DNA of 64,000 bases, taken from Muricauda sp. MAR_2010_75. Its GTDB lineage: Bacteria > Bacteroidota > Bacteroidia > Flavobacteriales > Flavobacteriaceae. A program made the translations under genes and the position numbers. Where the stretch lies: positions 2,193,501 to 2,257,500 of the forward strand of contig NZ_JQNJ01000001.1 of the NCBI RefSeq assembly GCF_000745185.1, written 5' to 3'. This document shows, one piece after another, positions 48,009 to 58,067 of this stretch; the first letter of the stretch is position 1; every line of letters begins with the position of its first letter. The notes under the pieces are model-generated. The model had not been told where the DNA came from and did no database searches. It saw only the letters and a list, made by a program, of their open reading frames with translations.

Positions 48009-49001
48009 CTAACTGTAAAAACTCTTCACTTGTCGGTTCTCGTGCCCTTTTTCACTGTATTCTCGGTAGGTAAATCCCGGATGGACGCAGTATCCGCCGG
48101 TTTCTCCATTTTTGTTGATGGCCAAAAAGCCGATCTGGAAATCTTTCCGACCTTCATTTTTCTTCATGATGCGTTTTACCCCTTCTTCACAGGCTTCTTG
48201 TGGGCTTTTTCCTTGTCGCATCAGTTCCACGATCAAAAAACTACCAACAGTACGGATGACTTCCTCGCCCACACCAGTAGCGGTAGCACCGCCAACTTCA
48301 TTATCCACATACAATCCTGCGCCAATAATGGGGGAATCGCCAACTCTACCAGCCACTTTATACGCCATTCCACTGGTAGTACAGGCCCCGGAAATATCAC
48401 CATTAGCGTCAATGGCCAACATACCAATCGTATCGTGGTTTTCTATGTTGATGGTGGTCTCGTACTTTGAAGTTTTCAACCACTCTTGGTATTGTTGTCG
48501 CGTACTTTCGGTCAACAGGTCTTCTTTTTCAAAGCCCTGTTCATAGGCAAATTTTTCAGCGCCCTTGCCCGCTAGTAAGATGTGTGGTGTTTCTTCCATC
48601 ACTTTCCGGGCCACAGAAACAGGATGTACTATGTTCTGAAGGTAGACCACCGAGCCACAATTGCCGTCTTTGTCCATAATGCAGGCATCCAACGTAACAT
48701 TTCCATCACGGTCAGGTCTGCCACCTTTACCTACAGTTTCATTGGTTTCATCGGCTTCTTCCACCATAACACCTTGTTCCACGGCATCCAATGCATTACC
48801 ACCTTTGCTTAACACTTCCCAAGCCTTGCTGGTGGCATTGTGGAAGTTCCATGTACAGACCACAATGGGCTTTATGGGTTCCGTTGGAGGCACAACCGTT
48901 TCTTCAGTTTTGTTTTCGGTCTTGCAGGAGGTTAGGGCAGAGGCCGATACGATTCCAACCGTGGTTAGGCTGGAATTTTTAAGGAATTTGCGTCGCTTCA
49001 C
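48009..49001 (-). CDS. N4-(beta-N-acetylglucosaminyl)-L-asparaginase, Tat-type lipoprotein
   Basis: 330 residues of the Ntn-hydrolase glycosylasparaginase family, which cleaves the GlcNAc-Asn link of N-glycans and self-processes at a conserved Asp-Thr. Seen: MKRRKFLKNSS (Tat-type twin arginine), a hydrophobic stretch and a lipobox-like SASALTSC, so probably folded before export and lipid-anchored. The autocleavage region is NHDTIGMLAID (nucleophile Thr), with the substrate-binding GRVGDSPIIGAGLYVDN. It starts only 41 bases from the divergent cutC start. Confidence 0.92.
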   Translation of the reverse strand: MKRRKFLKNSSLTTVGIVSASALTSCKTENKTEETVVPPTEPIKPIVVCTWNFHNATSKAWEVLSKGGNALDAVEQGVMVEEADETNETVGKGGRPDRDGNVTLDACIMDKDGNCGSVVYLQNIVHPVSVARKVMEETPHILLAGKGAEKFAYEQGFEKEDLLTESTRQQYQEWLKTSKYETTINIENHDTIGMLAIDANGDISGACTTSGMAYKVAGRVGDSPIIGAGLYVDNEVGGATATGVGEEVIRTVGSFLIVELMRQGKSPQEACEEGVKRIMKKNEGRKDFQIGFLAINKNGETGGYCVHPGFTYREYSEKGHENRQVKSFYS

Positions 49002-49816: not shown

Positions 49817-51055
49817 ATGTCCCGATTTATCGTTTTGGCAATTTTGTATGTGGTGCTGGCCGTTTATGGTTTTCAAGCATTCCGCACATTGTTCAAAAGT
49901 CCATTGATGCACTGGACCTACATTGCACTTTTTTTGGGCGCCTTGATTTTTTTGACCGTTAAGGTTCTCACCTATGACCCAGGAGATGGCTTTAAAGGCA
50001 CCGCAGCTATTGCCGGGAGTATTTTTGCCGCTTTCTTTTTGTTGGCTTTGGTGTTGGGATTCTTTCTTCTATTGGAGGATATTGTACGATTGATTGGTTT
50101 TGGTTACAATAAACTGGTAGGGGTTTCCAATCCCGATGCAGGGTATTTTCCTTCCCGAAGAAGTTTTGTAAGTGGTATTGCCCTGGGTTTGGCGGCCCTG
50201 CCTTTTGGGGCTTTGCTATATGGTATGTACCGTGGAAAATACAATTATCAGGTGTTGAAATACGAGCTTGAGTTCGATGATTTGCCCGATGCCTTCCATA
50301 ACTATCAGATTACACAAATTTCTGATGTGCACAGCGGTAGTTTTGACGATTACAACAAGGTTACCTATGGGGTTGACCTTATCAATGAGCAGCAAAGTGA
50401 TGTAATTTTCTTCACAGGGGACTTGGTCAATAACAAGTCCGATGAAATGAAACCTTGGAAAGATGTCTTTTCCCGTTTGGAGGCCAAGGATGGTATATAT
50501 TCCATTTTAGGAAACCACGATTATGGGGACTATGCTTCTTGGGAAACCGAGGAGGCCAAGGCCCAAAATTTAGAAGACCTGAAGATGATACAGCGAGAGA
50601 TGGGTTTTGATTTGATGTTGAACACCAATCGCTATTTGGAAAAAGATGGACAGAAAATTGCCTTGCTAGGTGTAGAAAACTGGGGCCGTGGCGGATTTAA
50701 AAAGGCTGGGGATTTACAAAAGGCCAAAGAAGGTATCCACAAAGATGACTTTAAAATATTGCTGAGCCATGATCCCTCGCATTGGGAAGATGTGGTGTTG
50801 CACGATGATTACCATTTTCACTTGACCTTGAGTGGGCATACCCATGGAATGCAGTTTGGGGTTGAGATTCCCGGATGGATAAAATGGAGCCCTGTGAAAT
50901 GGCGCTACAAATATTGGGCGGGCATTTACAAGGAGTTAGATCAGTTCATCAATGTGAACCGTGGGTTCGGATTTATTGGTTATCCTGGGCGTTTTGGCAT
51001 CTGGCCAGAGGTTTCTGTGATTACATTGAAGAAGAAGGGATTGGACGAAGCCTAG
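49817..51055 (+). CDS. Membrane-anchored calcineurin-like metallophosphoesterase
   Basis: 412 residues. The N-terminal third has four to five membrane helices (IVLAILYVVLAVYGF to about residue 140). The C-terminal domain is a metallophosphoesterase with the full motif set: QISDVHSGSF (first Asp-x-His), FFTGDLVNN, ILGNHDYGDY and LSGHTHGMQFG. Related YaeI-type enzymes act on lipid phosphates such as UDP-diacylglucosamine. The catalytic domain probably faces the periplasm or outer side; topology is inferred. Its 3' end reappears, diverged, at 55375-55425, evidence of a past duplication. Confidence 0.93.
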   Translation: MSRFIVLAILYVVLAVYGFQAFRTLFKSPLMHWTYIALFLGALIFLTVKVLTYDPGDGFKGTAAIAGSIFAAFFLLALVLGFFLLLEDIVRLIGFGYNKLVGVSNPDAGYFPSRRSFVSGIALGLAALPFGALLYGMYRGKYNYQVLKYELEFDDLPDAFHNYQITQISDVHSGSFDDYNKVTYGVDLINEQQSDVIFFTGDLVNNKSDEMKPWKDVFSRLEAKDGIYSILGNHDYGDYASWETEEAKAQNLEDLKMIQREMGFDLMLNTNRYLEKDGQKIALLGVENWGRGGFKKAGDLQKAKEGIHKDDFKILLSHDPSHWEDVVLHDDYHFHLTLSGHTHGMQFGVEIPGWIKWSPVKWRYKYWAGIYKELDQFINVNRGFGFIGYPGRFGIWPEVSVITLKKKGLDEA

Positions 51056-51071
51056 TATATTTTGAAATAAT

Positions 51072-53471
51072 TTATCGCTTCAAAGTAAAATGGAACCGAT
51101 AGATAGTCGAATCGGAACCTGAAGTGTATTCAACACTATACCAATAATCATCCGCGGGCATAAGTTTTCCCATGTATCTTCCATCCCAAGTAGGATTTTC
51201 TGGAGTTAAAACGGCAATCAACTTTCCATATCGGTCAAATATTTTTGTGAAATACTCGCAGTCGTTCTCAGACTCCAAAAACCACTGATCATTTATCCCA
51301 TCACCATTTGGGGTAAAAAAGTTCTTGGCCCTAAAGCATAAGTTGCTATCCTCTATACAAAGCAGTTCAACATAGGGGACGGAAAAAAAGCAACTTTCAT
51401 CAATTGTTGATACCGTGAGGTCTTCGTAACCACCACCTTGTAAAGTTGTCAGTAAAATTTCACCCATACCGTTGGAAGTATGCCCATCGGTCATTACTTC
51501 ATTATTAAAGTGATATGAGATATCGTAAGGGGTATTGGGCGATAATCCCATTATTTGTATAGATCCATCCGGTATATTGCACGCACTGGGTGAGTTGACC
51601 GCTACTTGAAACTGAAAATTGGGATTATTGAGTGAGACGGTGCCAAAATTATTGGGGCAAATACCGCCAACTTCTCCAACGGAAAAGCTTTGATAACTTC
51701 CGCCGGATAGGCCGTTAAGAAAGATTTCTCCACTGGAATCGGCAATCAAATCTTCTGAAACGGATGTGGATTGGGTCTCAAAGGAAATCGTGTAAGCTTC
51801 GGCAGGAGTAAGGTTATGAATAAGAATTGCTCCATCACTTATTCCACATCCTGAAGGCTCGGTAATATCCAGTTGGGCATCCACCAGTTCAGACCCATTC
51901 AATATAATGGAGCCAAGATCATCTGAACAAGAAATTATACTTTCGGTCACCACAATATTGTCATAGGTGCCAGCGGCCAAATTCACAACTTGAATCATTC
52001 CATTTACATCCGAGAGGTAGTAATCCGATATAGTATTGCCTTGATAATCATAGGTTACCGTATAGTCCCTTTGTGGATTAAGGTCAGAAATTGTGAAGGA
52101 ACCATCATAGCTGTTGCACCCAGAGGGGTCCGTTGAGTTGTCTAGGGAATAGGTGACCTCTCCCAGGTCAAGTATCCAAACGGCTCCTCTTTCCGGGCCA
52201 TTTTCACTATCGTGATAAGCACTGACCGCAATTTTTGGGTTTTCACCACCATTTAATAATGTAATGGCACCGCCAAAATAATCGCCACCATTCAACAGAC
52301 CAGAAAAGCAATGTTCTCCGTAGCTATAAAAATAATCTTCGGAAACGGTTCCATTGTCATTTAATTCTATCATATAGAATCCACCTGTTTGGCTGGAGAA
52401 GGTAGGGTTGAAGTGACCCAGTGCACCCACCAAAATTTCTTTTCTGCCATCATTGTCAATATCATTTATACCATCTATGGATTCTCCAAAAAGTGCATTT
52501 CCGGAAATCTGATGGGAAAGTCCACCCGAGGTGTTGGAAACTTTTTGTGAAGACTTTACGGTTCCGTCCGTATTAAGATATAAAATATAGAAACTACCCG
52601 AGTTGGTCAGTTGGTCATCATCCCGGTAGGCTCCTGTGATGATATCGGTTACCCCATCACCATCATGGTCACCTATATTTAGAACAGACCCGCCAAAATA
52701 GTCTTCAAAGTCCAATGGGGGTGTAAACCCTCCTTGGGTATCGCTGATTTTTTGTGAAGTGTTTACGGTAAGGTCGGCATTCATAAAAAGAATCCACACG
52801 GCACCACGTCTTGACCCCCCATCTGCATCCCTTCTTGAACCTACTGCCAAGTCTGTTATTCCATCATTGTTTAAATCTCCAATGACCTCCATATCAGTTC
52901 CAAAAATGGCATCTCCGTTAATAAAACCATTGAATCCGCCTTGGGTATCACTGATTTTTACATGTGAGTTTACGGTACCGTCATTATTTAGACTGAGTAT
53001 CCAGACCGCACCATGCCAATATCCCCCATCACCATCATAATCTGCTCCAACGGCCAACTCAATGAGGCCATCTGAATTTAAATCACCCAAATAAGAAACC
53101 GAACCACCAAATCGGTCATCATTATCCAAGACTCCTGTGAAGTTTCCACTGGTGTCGCTAATTTTGGTGTTGTTTATGACTTGGTTGTTGGCATCTAAGA
53201 AAAGAATCCAAACTGCACCTCGATTAAAGCCACCGTCATCATCTGTGTAGGCTCCTACCGCAAGGTCGTTTGTGCCGTTTCCATCCAAATCCCCTATGTT
53301 GTCAATGGCAATTCCCCATGAATCATAATCATTCAATGTTCCTGTAAAACCACCATTGGTCTCATTGATCTTCTGATAATCACTGACATCATAGTTCTGT
53401 GAAAACCCTACATTGAATGTTAGGAGAATTAGAATTGAAACGAAGGTTTCAAAACACTGATTTTTAATCAT
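51072..53471 (-). CDS. Secreted FG-GAP repeat protein with T9SS type B C-terminal domain
   Basis: 799 residues from the ATG at 53471, which gives a good signal peptide (FVSILILLTFNVGFSQ); the frame's earlier ATG at 53579 does not. The N-terminal half has at least five FG-GAP/integrin-like repeats with calcium loops (GDLDGNGTNDLAVGAY, GDLNSDGLIELAVGAD, GDLNNDGITDLAVGSR, GDHDGDGVTDIITGAY). Three ~75-residue Cys-containing repeats follow (DPSGCNSYDGSF, EPSGCGISDGAI, SPSACNIPDGSI). The C-terminus FTPNGDGINDQW to YRFHFTLKR is the gliding-motility-associated (CHU_C, type B) sorting domain. So it is exported by T9SS and fixed at the cell surface. It belongs to the apparent inserted cassette. Confidence 0.9.
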   Translation of the reverse strand: MIKNQCFETFVSILILLTFNVGFSQNYDVSDYQKINETNGGFTGTLNDYDSWGIAIDNIGDLDGNGTNDLAVGAYTDDDGGFNRGAVWILFLDANNQVINNTKISDTSGNFTGVLDNDDRFGGSVSYLGDLNSDGLIELAVGADYDGDGGYWHGAVWILSLNNDGTVNSHVKISDTQGGFNGFINGDAIFGTDMEVIGDLNNDGITDLAVGSRRDADGGSRRGAVWILFMNADLTVNTSQKISDTQGGFTPPLDFEDYFGGSVLNIGDHDGDGVTDIITGAYRDDDQLTNSGSFYILYLNTDGTVKSSQKVSNTSGGLSHQISGNALFGESIDGINDIDNDGRKEILVGALGHFNPTFSSQTGGFYMIELNDNGTVSEDYFYSYGEHCFSGLLNGGDYFGGAITLLNGGENPKIAVSAYHDSENGPERGAVWILDLGEVTYSLDNSTDPSGCNSYDGSFTISDLNPQRDYTVTYDYQGNTISDYYLSDVNGMIQVVNLAAGTYDNIVVTESIISCSDDLGSIILNGSELVDAQLDITEPSGCGISDGAILIHNLTPAEAYTISFETQSTSVSEDLIADSSGEIFLNGLSGGSYQSFSVGEVGGICPNNFGTVSLNNPNFQFQVAVNSPSACNIPDGSIQIMGLSPNTPYDISYHFNNEVMTDGHTSNGMGEILLTTLQGGGYEDLTVSTIDESCFFSVPYVELLCIEDSNLCFRAKNFFTPNGDGINDQWFLESENDCEYFTKIFDRYGKLIAVLTPENPTWDGRYMGKLMPADDYWYSVEYTSGSDSTIYRFHFTLKR

Positions 53472-53607
53472 AAGAAAAATCCTAGTATGGCTAGGGCAAA
53501 ATAAATGCTTTTGATAAGAAAAAATAACGAATCGACTTATTTTAGACAAAATGATTTTAAATCTCCATTGAATGTACATTGAATGGGGTTGCTAAGTTTA
53601 AAAAATA

Positions 53608-53615
53608 TAATTTTG
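53608..53615 (+). promoter_or_regulatory. Probable -7 element of the FkbM gene
   Basis: TAATTTTG fits TAnnTTTG and is 26 bases before the ATG at 53641. No clear -33 element. Confidence 0.4.
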
Positions 53616-53640
53616 TCAAATTTTCGAGACGTACACGCCA

Positions 53641-54537
53641 ATGGGTTTATTTCATTCTATCATATATCAGCCGGCCATAAATACATTGCTTAGGAATATC
53701 AACAAGCTTCTGTCTCCGATATTGCCTAAAAAATTCAAGATCCATCCATCTGGGCTGTTGAAAGTGAAAATTGATTCAAACCTTTCGTTTTATCTTAAAA
53801 CCAATCAAACCAGTTATCTGACCCGGGAGTTGTTTTGGAAAAAACCGTTGGAGTTTGAGTACACGTCTATTTTCATTGATTTGGTAAAGAAAGTTGGGTC
53901 GTTTTGGGATATAGGGGCCAACATTGGCTACTACAGTATTTTAGGGTGCAAGGCCAATCCCAATCTTAAGGTAATTGCTTTTGAGCCTTCCGTAGGCCCC
54001 AAGGTATATATGACTGAAAACCTGAAAATAAATGGGTTGGAGGATAGGATAACGATTGAACCGATGGCACTCTCAAATTTTAATGGTGAGATTGAGTTCT
54101 ATCAAATTGTGAACCCTAAATTTCCTTCTATCTTAAACTTGTCCGGGGAGCATAATATGGGAACCAAGAAGAGTTTAACCTCAGAAAAAGTGAAAATACC
54201 GTCCCTGCGGATTGATGACTATGAGAGTTCTGCGAATTCCATTGATTTGATAAAGATTGATACAGAAGGAGCTGAAGTGGAAATACTGAAGGGAGGTCAA
54301 CAAACTATATTGAAGCACAGGCCAATCATTGTTTGTGAGACCCTTTTTAACAGAAATGAGGCAGAAATAGAGCAGGTTCTAGGAGGATTGGGTTATCGTT
54401 TTTTTAATCATACCGAAAATGGTTTGCAGGAGGCGGAAACACTGATGCGGGAGGTGGATAATGGGGTCAGGAACTGTTTCTGTGTTCCCGATTCGAAATT
54501 GGATATGATTAAAGAATACTTAACAAATGAAGGTTAG
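53641..54537 (+). CDS. FkbM-family methyltransferase
   Basis: 298 residues. The SAM-binding Rossmann core has WDIGANIGYYSILGC (motif I) and VIAFEPSVGPKVY, and the FkbM hallmark IKIDTEGAEVEILKGG. FkbM enzymes O-methylate sugars or polyketides, here probably a surface polysaccharide. No signal peptide. It stands between the T9SS FG-GAP protein and another methyltransferase gene in a lower-G+C segment. Confidence 0.9.
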   Translation: MGLFHSIIYQPAINTLLRNINKLLSPILPKKFKIHPSGLLKVKIDSNLSFYLKTNQTSYLTRELFWKKPLEFEYTSIFIDLVKKVGSFWDIGANIGYYSILGCKANPNLKVIAFEPSVGPKVYMTENLKINGLEDRITIEPMALSNFNGEIEFYQIVNPKFPSILNLSGEHNMGTKKSLTSEKVKIPSLRIDDYESSANSIDLIKIDTEGAEVEILKGGQQTILKHRPIIVCETLFNRNEAEIEQVLGGLGYRFFNHTENGLQEAETLMREVDNGVRNCFCVPDSKLDMIKEYLTNEG

Positions 54538-54588
54538 GGATTTTTTAAAGTCAGTTTTGTTGTTTTAAAAGTATTTATCGCTTAAATA

Positions 54589-55299
54589 TTATATGTCTAA
54601 ACAATTTTCTCTTTCTTTATAAAAAACACTGGTACACCAAGCTCTGGAATTTATAGGTCCTAATCCTTGAAAATCAATTCTTTTGAAATTATTTGCTAGA
54701 AGGTATTTATACCCTTCATCATATTCATGTCTGTCCGAGTTGTCCCATATAATTACTCCTCCCTTTTTCAAAGCCAAAAGTGAGTTCTTACAACATTGAA
54801 CTCTCTCTCTACCATCAAGGACCACTATATCAAATTCATTTGTGTAGTTGGTTATTTCTTCAACATATTTGTTTGATTCTAGCTCTCTAAATTTATAATC
54901 TATTAATGGGTTTTTGGATAGGCTGGAGAACATGAAGTTATACCAATTTTTGTCGTGCTCAATTGAAATGACCTTACATCCAAATCTAGAAAACCAAATT
55001 GTGGAATTTCCACTTCCATATTCAAAAATCTTAAAGTTATCTTCAATTCTTTTTTCCAGAAAATGAATGAAACTATATGTAAACCAAGGAAGAGCTTCAC
55101 CGTTCCTGTCAATGGGTTTTCTGGACTTGACACTATTGTTCCAACCATAAACAGATAAATGGTTTTTTTGTAAGAGATAATAGGCTAATATTAAGCGTCC
55201 AATTGAGGTGCAATTAAAAGTTTTATGAACGAACTTTTGAAATGAATTCAAATTTTTGAAAATTACTTTTGTTATTGCAAATCTAAGCCTTAAAAACAA
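54589..55299 (-). CDS. Class I SAM-dependent methyltransferase-like protein
   Basis: 236 residues with motif I FEYGSGNSTIWFSRFG, an acidic end of strand 2 (VISIEHDKNW), and FDIVVLDGRERVQCC. These give the class I methyltransferase fold. The first ~75 residues contain a basic helical region unlike the core. Base composition is AT-rich compared with the core genes, which suggests horizontal acquisition. The substrate is unknown. It converges with the FkbM gene. Confidence 0.78.
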   Translation of the reverse strand: MFLRLRFAITKVIFKNLNSFQKFVHKTFNCTSIGRLILAYYLLQKNHLSVYGWNNSVKSRKPIDRNGEALPWFTYSFIHFLEKRIEDNFKIFEYGSGNSTIWFSRFGCKVISIEHDKNWYNFMFSSLSKNPLIDYKFRELESNKYVEEITNYTNEFDIVVLDGRERVQCCKNSLLALKKGGVIIWDNSDRHEYDEGYKYLLANNFKRIDFQGLGPINSRAWCTSVFYKERENCLDI

Positions 55300-55374
55300 A
55301 AAAGCATAGCTGATAAGAACATTTGAAACAAGCTTGTTAATTCAAAGCTTTTGGCGAAAGATTGAAATTTTGAT

Positions 55375-55425
55375 GGCATTTGGCCAGAAGTTTCTGTGAT
55401 TACACCAAAGAAAAAACTATCCTAA
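55375..55425 (+). pseudogene. 3'-end relic of a second metallophosphoesterase gene
   Basis: Bases 55375-55404 match 50996-51025, the 3' end of the metallophosphoesterase gene, at 28 of 30 positions. In frame they read GIWPEVSVITPKKKLS then stop, against GIWPEVSVITLKKKG in the intact gene. Upstream, the frame is closed by a TGA within a few codons, so only the last ~16 codons survive. The two differences in the matched stretch are silent, which indicates descent from a once-functional copy. Confidence 0.75.
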
Positions 55426-55452: not shown

Positions 55453-55920
55453 TTACAACAATTTCCAATGTTCAGATTTTAGTGCCATGGTTGCTTTTAG
55501 AATATCTTTTTGGGATATTTGACCTACAAGTTTTCCATTTTGCACAATAGGAAAACGACGTCTTTTAACTTCAAGGAATTTTTTGGCCGCATCAAAAATG
55601 TTCATGTTCCCATCAATGGTTTCCACATTTTTAATCATACGAAGCCCAACCTTGCTGCGTTCCATGGGCATATTGTAGTAACGACTATCGCTAATGTGCT
55701 TGATACAGTCCCCTTCTGAAATAATCCCTATAAGTTCGTTGTCTTCGTTAACAACAGGACCTCCCGAAATCTTATGTTTTATCAATGCTTCGATGACCTC
55801 TTCAATAGATTGCTCTGGACGAAAGGTGATCAAGTTTCTAGTCATATAATCACTTACCCTGAGTGATATTTCCTTTGGAGTTTCCTTAAATCTTTTTCCG
55901 GTGTAACTCTTAATAGCCAT
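55453..55920 (-). CDS. Paired CBS-domain protein
   Basis: 155 residues consisting of a CBS pair: SDYMTRNLITFRPEQSIEEV to GIISEGDCIKHI (first), and MIKNVETIDGNMNIFDAAKKFLE to LVGQISQKDILKA (second). CBS pairs bind adenine nucleotides and act as energy or redox sensors; no effector domain is fused. It lies just behind the metallophosphoesterase relic, so before the cassette arrived it was probably the neighbour of that gene. Confidence 0.9.
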   Translation of the reverse strand: MAIKSYTGKRFKETPKEISLRVSDYMTRNLITFRPEQSIEEVIEALIKHKISGGPVVNEDNELIGIISEGDCIKHISDSRYYNMPMERSKVGLRMIKNVETIDGNMNIFDAAKKFLEVKRRRFPIVQNGKLVGQISQKDILKATMALKSEHWKLL

Positions 55921-56123: not shown

Positions 56124-57428
56124 TTAGAGTTTTAAGGATGCTCCAAAGCCCAACATGGAAGTGGTCATTTCATAAGAAACCTCACTACTGGGAATAGCTC
56201 CATAAGGTGGGGAGTTTTGAATGAACATTGGATTCAAAACAGGGCCTGAAGTGGCATCTCCACTTGAGCCGTAATGGTAAAGTATATCCAATTGGAATCT
56301 ATCACTTACCTGGTAGCTTAACCCCACTTGAAAAGCATTTTTGATGATGGCGGTTGCCGGGATGTTGAAGAAGGCAACATCGCTGTTTATGGGATTGGAG
56401 CTATAGGTATATCCAACACGGATAGGGAACTTGTTAATTCCCTTGTATTGGATTCCTGTGGAAATAATAGTGATGTTTTCCCATCCAAATCCAGCCACTG
56501 AAGCGGTTTCGGTCCAACCAACGGAAGAGAAGCCATCCGTATTTTCATAATCTACCATTCTATAATCCAAGGCAAAATCAATGGTACCCAAAGAGTAACC
56601 CACCCCAAAGGAAAGAATGGCCGGATAGTCCATGTTGAAGTTATTGGAGCTTTGCGAACCATCCAAATAGGTGTTGTCCAGTTCAAAATCACCAAAATAT
56701 TGGGTTGTTTTATAGGAGACCCCTGCCTTAAAGCCCACTTTGGAGCTGTAGAATAACCCTATTTGCCCCCCAAATCCAAAAGCAGATGCTTTGTTGGTAG
56801 AAGGATACCCAGCTTGGTTGGGATTGGCTGTTGGGTTGGGCATTAATTCCAAAGCGGCATAGTTAAATGTAGGTTGCAGACCAAATGAAAATTGATCGGT
56901 AATTTCATAGGCCCATGCCAATCCAATTTGGAAGAGCATATAATCTGATTCTATCCTTCCAAATCCGCCATTGGCCTGAGGCATGTTTATGGGATTGGTC
57001 ATACTTTCAGGGAAGGTTACCCCAAATCCACTGATTCCAAATGCAGATGCCCCAAAAGTATGCTTGCTGTCCGGTTTGCTCCATACAGCCGCCAATGCAG
57101 GCATTGGAGAAACGCCTCGGTCATCTTCAGTAGTTCCGCTATAAAAATTGCCTGTTGGTTGACCTTGTCCATCAAATTCTGGAACGGTTGAGCTTAATTC
57201 CGGTGAGGAAAAGAACAATCCAATATCCAATTTAATGATGTCCTCGTCAAAGGCGGAAATAGTGGCAGGGTTCCAATGCAGTGCGCCAGAAATATCCAAT
57301 GGCTGGGCCGTGGCAGCACCACCCATGGACATGTTTACAGAGCCTACACCTTGCATAATATGGCCGGCTTGTGAAAATGTGGCTGTGCTGATGAAAAGAG
57401 CGCAAAAGGTAAAAATAAAATTTTTCAT
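56124..57428 (-). CDS. OmpP1/FadL-family outer-membrane transporter
   Basis: 434 residues, with a signal peptide (IFTFCALFISTATFSQ) directly followed by AGHIMQGVGSVNMSMGGAATA, the FadL N-terminal plug. The rest is a beta barrel with many aromatic strands and a C-terminal MLGFGASLKL. FadL-type barrels take up long-chain fatty acids or other hydrophobic compounds. It is monocistronic, with its own terminator. Confidence 0.92.
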   Translation of the reverse strand: MKNFIFTFCALFISTATFSQAGHIMQGVGSVNMSMGGAATAQPLDISGALHWNPATISAFDEDIIKLDIGLFFSSPELSSTVPEFDGQGQPTGNFYSGTTEDDRGVSPMPALAAVWSKPDSKHTFGASAFGISGFGVTFPESMTNPINMPQANGGFGRIESDYMLFQIGLAWAYEITDQFSFGLQPTFNYAALELMPNPTANPNQAGYPSTNKASAFGFGGQIGLFYSSKVGFKAGVSYKTTQYFGDFELDNTYLDGSQSSNNFNMDYPAILSFGVGYSLGTIDFALDYRMVDYENTDGFSSVGWTETASVAGFGWENITIISTGIQYKGINKFPIRVGYTYSSNPINSDVAFFNIPATAIIKNAFQVGLSYQVSDRFQLDILYHYGSSGDATSGPVLNPMFIQNSPPYGAIPSSEVSYEMTTSMLGFGASLKL

Positions 57429-57770
57429 TAGTTGAGATTTTACACTAGAAATGGCTGATTCATAGCTATTTGGTCAGTCAAATACAGTGGTGTTATTTCA
57501 AGTGTAAACCTAGGGGTAAAGTAGTCTAAAATGAATGATAAATGTCATGGTATGAAGATGTTATAGGTCTAAGTGCCTTAACTCATCCAATTGATTGTAA
57601 ACAAAAGCATACCTTATTTGTTTATGGACTTTCTTTTGATTTAAAACCCTTACGGTTTAGGTTAAGGGAAAGGTTTAACGTGAATTTAACGAGGGTCAAT
57701 ATCCTAAAGCGTTGACTTGACGTAAAACTTTAACAATTTTTCTTACTTTTGACTGTAAACCAGTGAATAC
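57429..57770. other. Intergenic stretch without gene
   Basis: 342 bases between divergent genes. Apart from the trx-like promoter element at its right end, I see no RNA, ORF or strong hairpin. A direct TTTAA-type repeat (GGTTTAACGTGAATTTAACG near 57673-57692) is weak. Confidence 0.4.
57744..57751 (+). promoter_or_regulatory. Probable -7 element of the thioredoxin-fold gene
   Basis: TACTTTTG matches TAnnTTTG and lies 20 bases before the ATG at 57771. The upstream TTGA (57717-57720) is slightly too far for a -33 element. Confidence 0.45.
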
Positions 57771-58067
57771 ATGTCAAAGTTTGGCGAACTCATAGATTTA
57801 AAAGTCCCTGTGTTGTTGGATTTTTATGCAGAGTGGAACGAACAATCCACTTCCATGCACCCTGTTTTGCGCGATGTAGCGGCAGCTCTTGGCGATAAAG
57901 GAAAAGTCATAAAAATAGATGTGGACAAGAACAAAGAGCTTTCACAAGCGCTCCGCATTAAGGGATTACCCACATTAATGATTTATAAAAAAGGTGAAAT
58001 GGTTTGGCGGCAGAGTGGCGAACAGGACGCCAACACGCTGATCGGCATTTTGAACGAATATATATAA
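57771..58067 (+). CDS. Thioredoxin-fold protein lacking the CxxC active site
   Basis: 98 residues, a compact thioredoxin fold: strand VPVLLDFYAEW, helix, IKIDVDKNKELSQALRIKGLPTLMIY with the cis-Pro at residue 67, and a C-terminal helix. The normal WCGPC is replaced by W22-N-E-Q-S26, so dithiol redox catalysis is impossible. It may bind partners or act as a chaperone or adaptor. No signal peptide. Its stop lies in the hairpin terminator that separates it from the DUF2723 gene. Confidence 0.88.
   Translation: MSKFGELIDLKVPVLLDFYAEWNEQSTSMHPVLRDVAAALGDKGKVIKIDVDKNKELSQALRIKGLPTLMIYKKGEMVWRQSGEQDANTLIGILNEYI

Follow-up and report, generated by a model that had tools for sequence, protein, structure and literature searches.

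In the 64,000-nucleotide stretch of Muricauda sp. MAR_2010_75 that we analyzed (assembly GCF_000745185.1, contig NZ_JQNJ01000001.1, positions 2,193,501-2,257,500; hereafter the window), the 3′ end of a metallophosphoesterase gene (MPE) occurs twice, once in the intact gene and once, as a short remnant that we call relic 1, behind a cassette of three genes. According to our comparison with related genomes, the cassette is an insertion, and relic 1 is best read as the old MPE end, left in place before the gene of a CBS-domain protein (CBS). By the same comparison, the interval between MPE and a thioredoxin-like gene (TRX) is an insertion hotspot without a recognised mobile element. Similar leftovers behind other housekeeping genes suggest that such relics are a recurring, readable scar of gene acquisition.

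The genome that holds the window (G000, 4,424,696 bases) was compared within a set of 71 genomes of the Flagellimonas/Allomuricauda group, and many of the loci named below carry those genus names. MPE is present in all 71. We retrieved its surroundings from the 70 other genomes; the contigs of G048 and G059 stop before TRX, and 69 loci, the window included, have both borders (MPE and TRX) on the stretch. Among the loci, L068 is that of G058, a draft genome that is 88% complete, L091 that of G020 and L083 that of G029. Nearness by DUF2723 always refers to a single-gene tree.

The repeated MPE end and the inserted cassette

The first-pass annotation had reported that the end of MPE reappears with 28 of 30 core bases matching and a stop codon of its own, and this holds: positions 50995-51036 and 55374-55415 are identical at 36 of 42 bases, including 28 of the first 30. 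The differences, described there as silent only, are silent within the 30-base core but not beyond it, where a leucine of the gene is a proline in the relic and the tails diverge (KKKGLDEA in the gene, KKKLS in the relic). Translation of 55375-55425 gives GIWPEVSVITPKKKLS, followed by the relic's own stop at 55425. Because an in-frame stop lies immediately 5′ of it, relic 1 is not the end of a longer open reading frame (ORF). When the whole 4,424,696-base genome was searched with the 131-base MPE end (E up to 0.001), the gene and relic 1 (E 5.1e-7) were the only matches, with no third copy. The match is just 42 bases long, which might speak for chance similarity; however, its genome-wide E value, its reading frame with its own stop and its position, where the MPE end lies in relatives, leave chance with next to no probability, and for practical purposes it is refuted as the source of relic 1.

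In five loci (L033, L038, L044, L048, and L050) CBS lies directly 3′ of MPE. Two scans of these loci detected no second MPE end above threshold, and the cassette is absent from them too (5/5). Since all five have neither cassette nor relic, the comparison identifies the FG-GAP/FkbM/methyltransferase cassette as an insertion. This is what the first-pass annotation had proposed, and both of its expectations were borne out: five cassette-free relatives show MPE, then CBS, with one gene end (all five scanned), and other cassettes occur at the same site. Among the loci examined, we saw neither the relic in a relative without an insertion nor the same genes everywhere between MPE and CBS. Furthermore, the MPE-TRX site is empty in G058, one of the two nearest genomes by DUF2723.

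The order of the two copies can be read from their surroundings. Because CBS follows relic 1 as it follows MPE in relatives, relic 1 is best taken as the old end, and the tandem duplicate later replaced by the cassette, which the first-pass annotation offered as a second explanation, is not needed.

Searches for further faint MPE-end relics gave candidates that we attribute to chance. In the first scan, L043, L044, and L053 scored just 1-2 above the highest shuffle (flag, > 2). In a profile scan, L033, L034, L072 and others reached 18-20 bits, 1.6-4.3 above their shuffles, compared to 50 and 51 for the two relics.

As for the cassette itself, domain searches confirmed a type IX secretion system (T9SS)-exported FG-GAP protein with an FkbM methyltransferase gene next to it, and the CBS gene comes next after the cassette, as annotated (Table 1). 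The third gene is AT-rich as described (30.9% G+C vs 42.0% for the window), but its designation as a second methyltransferase is weak, as the Methyltransf_31 match falls below the Pfam cut-off and an NCBIfam search returned no match.

All three genes are rare when each is searched for in the 71 genomes. Relatives of the FG-GAP gene were found in G006 (68%) and G059 (65%, partial), as fragments in G044 and more weakly (43-45%) in G013 and G063. The FkbM gene has relatives at 51-66% in 5 other genomes, none of them near MPE, and 27-30% matches in four more. Relatives of the third gene occur in G003, G023, G067, and G043. Between MPE and TRX, all 68 other loci that span both borders lack the cassette; in G059, where this site cannot be judged, the FG-GAP relative lies on another contig. 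FG-GAP and FkbM genes are adjacent in G006, FkbM stands beside the FG-GAP fragments in G044, and it stands beside the AT-rich gene in G003 and G023. These pairs always sit on a contig other than the one with MPE; the cassette genes are thus paired elsewhere and combined at the MPE site in the window. The recurrent FG-GAP/FkbM pairing suggests a secreted surface protein together with a methyltransferase that would modify it or act in the same surface coat. We found no relevant published link between FkbM and T9SS, judged by title.

The interval between MPE and TRX

In 38 of the 69 loci the gap between MPE and TRX measures 84-92 bp (empty sites), and in the other 31 it measures 0.75-8.7 kb (occupied sites). 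Junctions longer than 300 bp are concentrated here (31/69), compared to 0/63 between asnase and cutC, 1/63 between cutC and MPE and 6/69 between TRX and DUF2723; asnase and cutC are the names that we presume for the genes upstream of MPE. The cargo comes in 18 gene combinations, or 17 if one ORF-calling variant is merged. Even the four genomes grouped by DUF2723 show four states: the present set in the window, an empty site in G058, CBS plus two genes in G035 and one small ORF in G044. A search of 8 genomes with the FadL-like gene of the window gave no match in the 7 besides its own.

Cargo was typed with Pfam on one representative per cluster for ORFs of at least 70 codons, covering 21 of 24 clusters (clusters 14, 15, and 20 and shorter ORFs were left out). 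Apart from CBS and FadL-like genes, the clusters encode, among others, a 3-keto-disaccharide-hydrolase-like protein, LytTR and histidine kinase (two-component) regulators, a fatty-acid hydroxylase, GH16, a beta-lactamase-family protein and an M43 peptidase. The mixture, with its regulators, hydroxylase, GH16 and beta-lactamase-family protein, does not consist mainly of the surface-glycan and adhesin genes that had been suggested. No integrase, transposase, recombinase or conjugation gene was detected among the 21 typed clusters. The interval shares the traits of transfer hotspots free of mobile genetic elements: two core genes border variable cargo, the typed cargo has no mobility gene, and the flanking core gene has signs of recombination. 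On these comparisons, it is an insertion hotspot. The fixed exchange site of the first-pass annotation is thus retained, as the same two core genes border the changing cargo, but its limits are MPE and TRX, wider than MPE and CBS, since CBS and the FadL-like gene are themselves cargo.

Judged by eye on the gene sets, additions occurred on the MPE side in the window, L052, L062, and L071, and on the TRX side in L033 and L049, while c9 is internal. Direct repeats at the flanks of L071 and L072 also looked suggestive by eye; with p 0.315 and 0.065 they were dropped.

In 45 of the 69 loci (17/31 occupied, 28/38 empty), TRX is preceded at a distance of about 100 bp by an 18-base element, which has a single occurrence in G000 at up to 2 mismatches. 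At empty sites that have it, the element straddles the MPE stop, and MPE mostly ends in GLT or ALT; at occupied sites it remains beside TRX, and MPE carries another tail. There may accordingly be three MPE ends in the window: the current end, relic 1 and the sequence at 57669-57683 (relic 2), the last of which may be kept only as the upstream element of TRX. The latter role is the more likely one for the 18-base element. We considered it as an att core and rejected it, as there is one per locus, not repeated on the MPE side. The element is visible in other genera too, at Croceivirga, Croceitalea, and Zobellia loci.

Table 1. Features of the window discussed in the text (positions in the window)
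Feature	Position	Strand	Basis and remarks
Metallophosphoesterase (MPE), left border of the hotspot	49817..51055	+	Pfam Metallophos E 7e-15; present tail ...TLKKKGLDEA stop
Current MPE 3′ end, parent of relic 1	50996..51055	+	Sequence match to relic
Cassette gene 1, FG-GAP protein with T9SS type B C-terminal sorting domain	51072..53579	-	TIGR04131 E 1.8e-26
Cassette gene 2, FkbM family methyltransferase	53641..54537	+	TIGR01444 E 6.5e-27
Cassette gene 3, AT-rich putative methyltransferase (weak assignment)	54589..55299	-	Methyltransf_31 E 9.8e-4, below Pfam cut-off
Relic 1, probable former MPE 3′ end with stop codon, still attached to CBS	55374..55425	+	Sequence match, genome search, position
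CBS-domain gene, older cargo directly behind the probable former MPE end	55453..55920	-	Domain search; adjoins MPE in L033, L038, L044, L048, L050
OMPP1/FadL/TodX-like outer membrane protein, older cargo	56124..57428	-	Domain search; at same site in other species
Relic 2 (possible), KGLT stop, the MPE tail of many empty sites, beside TRX	57669..57683	+	Sequence reading; may be just part of conserved TRX upstream element
18-base element about 100 bp upstream of TRX, marks right border of cargo	57673..57690	+	Conserved in 45/69 genus loci
Thioredoxin-like gene (TRX), right border of the hotspot	57771..58067	+	Pfam Thioredoxin E 5.5e-17

Gene-end relics behind other genes

Three scans were made for repeats of gene pieces outside ORFs. 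The first took nearby same-strand repeats in 89 loci centred on the hotspot (1.60 Mb, 1206 ORFs) and gave four matches: relic 1, a 38-base MPE end in G034 (97%), a 252-base piece in G029 that includes about 160 bases of the TRX end, and an internal repeat in L078. In L083, the locus of G029, a second copy of the 3′ part of TRX, together with about 90 bp, stands about 1.6 kb further downstream; small ORFs lie between the copies, and additional sequence precedes DUF2723. By its arrangement, this repeat is a gene-end scar at the neighbouring junction. The second scan, again on the same strand, covered 83 stretches (0.74 Mb, 586 ORFs) from 7 loci elsewhere and parts upstream of MPE, and detected three relics of the polA 3′ end, two in L135 and one in L140, plus two internal repeats. 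The third covered both strands of 1.2 Mb of the G000 chromosome (1032 ORFs) and found, outside ORFs, three 3′-end relics and one 5′-end match, with no internal and no inverted copy. The parents are a class II tRNA synthetase, which we take to be GlyRS, a 6-pyruvoyl tetrahydropterin synthase, presumably QueD, and a Gfo/Idh/MocA oxidoreductase. The 5′-end match sits in a dispersed repeat with several neighbouring copies and was not counted.

In total, the scans yielded nine 3′-end relics (3 + 3 + 3) of six parent genes, all downstream of the parent. About eight are independent, as the nearer polA relic of L135 and that of L140 may be one event. They retain 28 to about 160 bp of coding end; the two polA relics in L135 each span the last 51 bp. 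Long relics are under-counted, since copies in ORFs of at least 90 codons were excluded and the first two scans also excluded copies longer than 400 bases. A scar of this kind is no marker of the MPE island alone, because the same kind occurs behind other genes.

The sequence behind the relics points in the same direction as CBS behind relic 1. By eye, the G034 relic is followed by the same bases as MPE in L055 and L060, and the nearer polA relic of L135 by the same bases as polA in L125. In G058 and G044, 2 of 12 relatives, GlyRS has the ending that the relic retains and is followed by the same bases. Behind the QueD relic comes sequence that in 8 of 11 relatives lies no more than 200 bp past QueD; this sequence leads into a tRNA-Val gene. 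G035, G044, and G058, which lack it there, carry short QueD-end matches 6.8-8.6 kb from the gene, so that the QueD scar seems older than these species. Wherever the arrangement can be judged, the relic is, on this sequence evidence, the former gene end in place, and the insert came between relic and gene.

We made some further observations at these sites. A SusC/SusD-type cluster lies between the QueD-like gene and the QueD-end relic by tRNA-Val (G000:C1:742344-750108, L243), and two small ORFs, HicA/HicB-like by eye and without a Pfam match, lie between the tRNA synthetase gene and its relic (G000:C1:1150033-1150935, L263). A second insertion hotspot appears to lie behind polA, where the first gene differs in many species (L135, L140). 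When 78 loci were scanned with the polA end, L176 and L186 matched inner parts of it over 30-39 bases (scores 20-21, shuffles 13).

Possible routes of insertion and known systems

The comparisons above demonstrate that the MPE end was duplicated, that the cassette was inserted, that the interval is a hotspot and that such scars recur; for the route, we infer recombination. We think it probable that the cassette entered the hotspot by a recombination that duplicated the MPE end, the relic being the old end. In this lineage, the cassette would have been inserted at the very end of MPE, leaving two copies of about 50 bp of its 3′ end. The upstream copy would have stayed joined to MPE, whose tail now reads GLDEA, and the downstream copy would be the old end before CBS, now decaying. 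Most likely, such recombination took place during DNA uptake or exchange with relatives: the core gene would have served as the anchor, and the far side would have been joined illegitimately slightly upstream of the stop codon, or template switching during repair would have had an equivalent result. An insert at a 3′ end that leaves the gene whole would be tolerated, whereas its counterpart at a 5′ end would separate the gene from its promoter. The dominance of 3′-end scars would be most simply explained by selection that spares inserts behind the gene.

Signs of recombination are present in MPE itself. In G035, the 3′ end of MPE and the region upstream of TRX are nearest to G033/G042, while its TRX and DUF2723 group with its own clade. 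Between G000 and G058, 2 of 147 sites differ at MPE positions 1048-1194, compared to a mean of about 12% from TRX through DUF2723. In the 5′ part of the same gene, bases 1-450 of G058 (L068) are only 65-73% identical to the window vs 97% in the 3′ part, as if replaced by recombination.

Several results weigh against insertion by such recombination or limit its reach. When 35 loci were compared with shuffles, no general direct repeat was detected left and right of whole cargo blocks, and most cargo events thus left no detectable relic. L055 and L062 reached p 0.015 in this test, but their scores (14 and 18) are below their own highest shuffles (16 and 23), and L191 is an overlap artefact. The tract shared by G000 and G058 is not unique, as G000 and G044 are 97.3% identical over 150 bp near 48870. 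No imported tract was found in the 3′ part of the intact GlyRS, QueD, and oxidoreductase genes, and the sequence behind the oxidoreductase relic was seen in none of 12 relatives. Strand polarity could be tested in the third scan alone, as the other two took same-strand copies only. In that scan, we left aside 38 more pairs in which the second copy falls within an ORF; these are mostly internal, with 4 touching a 3′ end and 2 a 5′ end. Close donors and a purely local duplication are not separable here.

The same data bear on three other explanations. A one-sided import from another species by strict homology-facilitated illegitimate recombination (for which de Vries and Wackernagel 2002 is said to be the work cited), with a foreign present MPE end and a native relic, is favoured by the imported MPE 3′ end of G035 and by the G000-G058 tract; besides, relic 1 resembles the MPE ends of G058 and G034 (35 of 42 bases each) almost as much as its own gene (36). 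However, at a codon that reads Ile in G058, G035, and G044, both the own gene and relic 1 have Val, a thin argument from one site (a second shared base also occurs in G044), and three other parent genes lack an imported tract. We regard this import as unlikely. Islands integrated by site-specific recombinases at gene 3′ ends keep the gene intact and duplicate its end beyond the insert. Integration by a tyrosine or serine recombinase, with the MPE 3′ end as attB, the relic as attR and the enzyme lost or acting in trans (a cis-mobilisable island), would thus yield the very anatomy seen here: intact gene, cargo and a short gene-end direct repeat. It would also suit the repeats of G000 and G034, whose starts differ by 17 bases when counted from the stop, and the equal span of the two L135 polA relics. 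Yet no recombinase was found among the typed cargo, no general direct repeat surrounds the cargo, and in occupied loci the 18-base element stands on the TRX side only. Relics of 28 to about 160 bp come from several unrelated target genes, and because their lengths vary, a fixed att core of constant length is disfavoured; we judge integration of this type to be quite improbable. A tandem duplication of MPE, its second copy replaced by the cassette except for its end, recalls the adjacent MPE paralogues (47-48% identity) of G020, G038, and G047. The one paralogue that could be placed (L091) sits upstream of MPE, though, the relic resembles its own gene, and polA, GlyRS, QueD, and TRX would each need the same history, so that we consider this duplication very improbable.

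Tentatively, recombination at the MPE end could be extended to a layered process, which we hold to be possible but doubtful. In Flagellimonas/Allomuricauda, cassettes would be acquired by a general 3′-end-directed insertion that re-caps the core gene and leaves its 5′-truncated end on the far side; stacked relics would then be a fossil record of the sequence of acquisitions, and the repeated ends could provide short homologies that move cassettes without an integrase. Candidate arrays are the window (MPE end, relic 1 and relic 2) and L135 (polA end and two relics). For an integron-like cassette array an integrase would be expected, and none is seen among the typed cargo.

Comparable systems have been described. 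For horizontal-transfer hotspots without mobile elements, double homologous recombination in the flanking genes has been proposed (Oliveira et al. 2017, PMC5635113). Like the MPE-TRX interval, these have two fixed core genes, fast-changing cargo, no recognised integrase and signs of recombination in the flanking core gene; the passages on them do not mention short gene-end relics between successive insertions. In the type VI secretion clusters of Vibrio cholerae, a new module joins behind a conserved anchor and displaces the older 3′ end and its genes downstream, as at the MPE site, by a proposed process akin to homology-facilitated illegitimate recombination (PMC5361080). The displaced part in that account belongs to an effector gene with a variable end, whereas here it is the ends of housekeeping genes with complete coding sequence. 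Homology-facilitated illegitimate recombination combines homology at one end with a non-homologous joint at the other (PMC3240628). Its anatomy fits the window; there the anchored end is foreign, while in G000 such an origin is uncertain. Short variable inserts at fixed loci are also known from three species, with direct repeats on both sides of 10-18% of the small variable segments; these repeats were related to deletion between them (PMC2884548), and the passage concerned does not single out gene 3′ ends. What sets the present case apart is the presence of short gene-end relics behind several housekeeping genes that are themselves complete. A narrow literature search revealed no earlier report that we recognised of gene-end relics at housekeeping genes.

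Such a scar shows which side of an insert joined where and orders the insertions, which makes gene entry into hotspots without mobile genetic elements testable by sequence comparison. Should the 3′ bias persist in a full survey, recent acquisitions and their empty sites could be located in any genome by means of gene-end relics, without integrase or tRNA markers.

The 1.2 Mb of the G000 chromosome that were scanned also contain six intergenic repeats. At G000:C1:643442-647880, repeats of about 40-70 bp flank an ORF that by eye resembles an ATPase.

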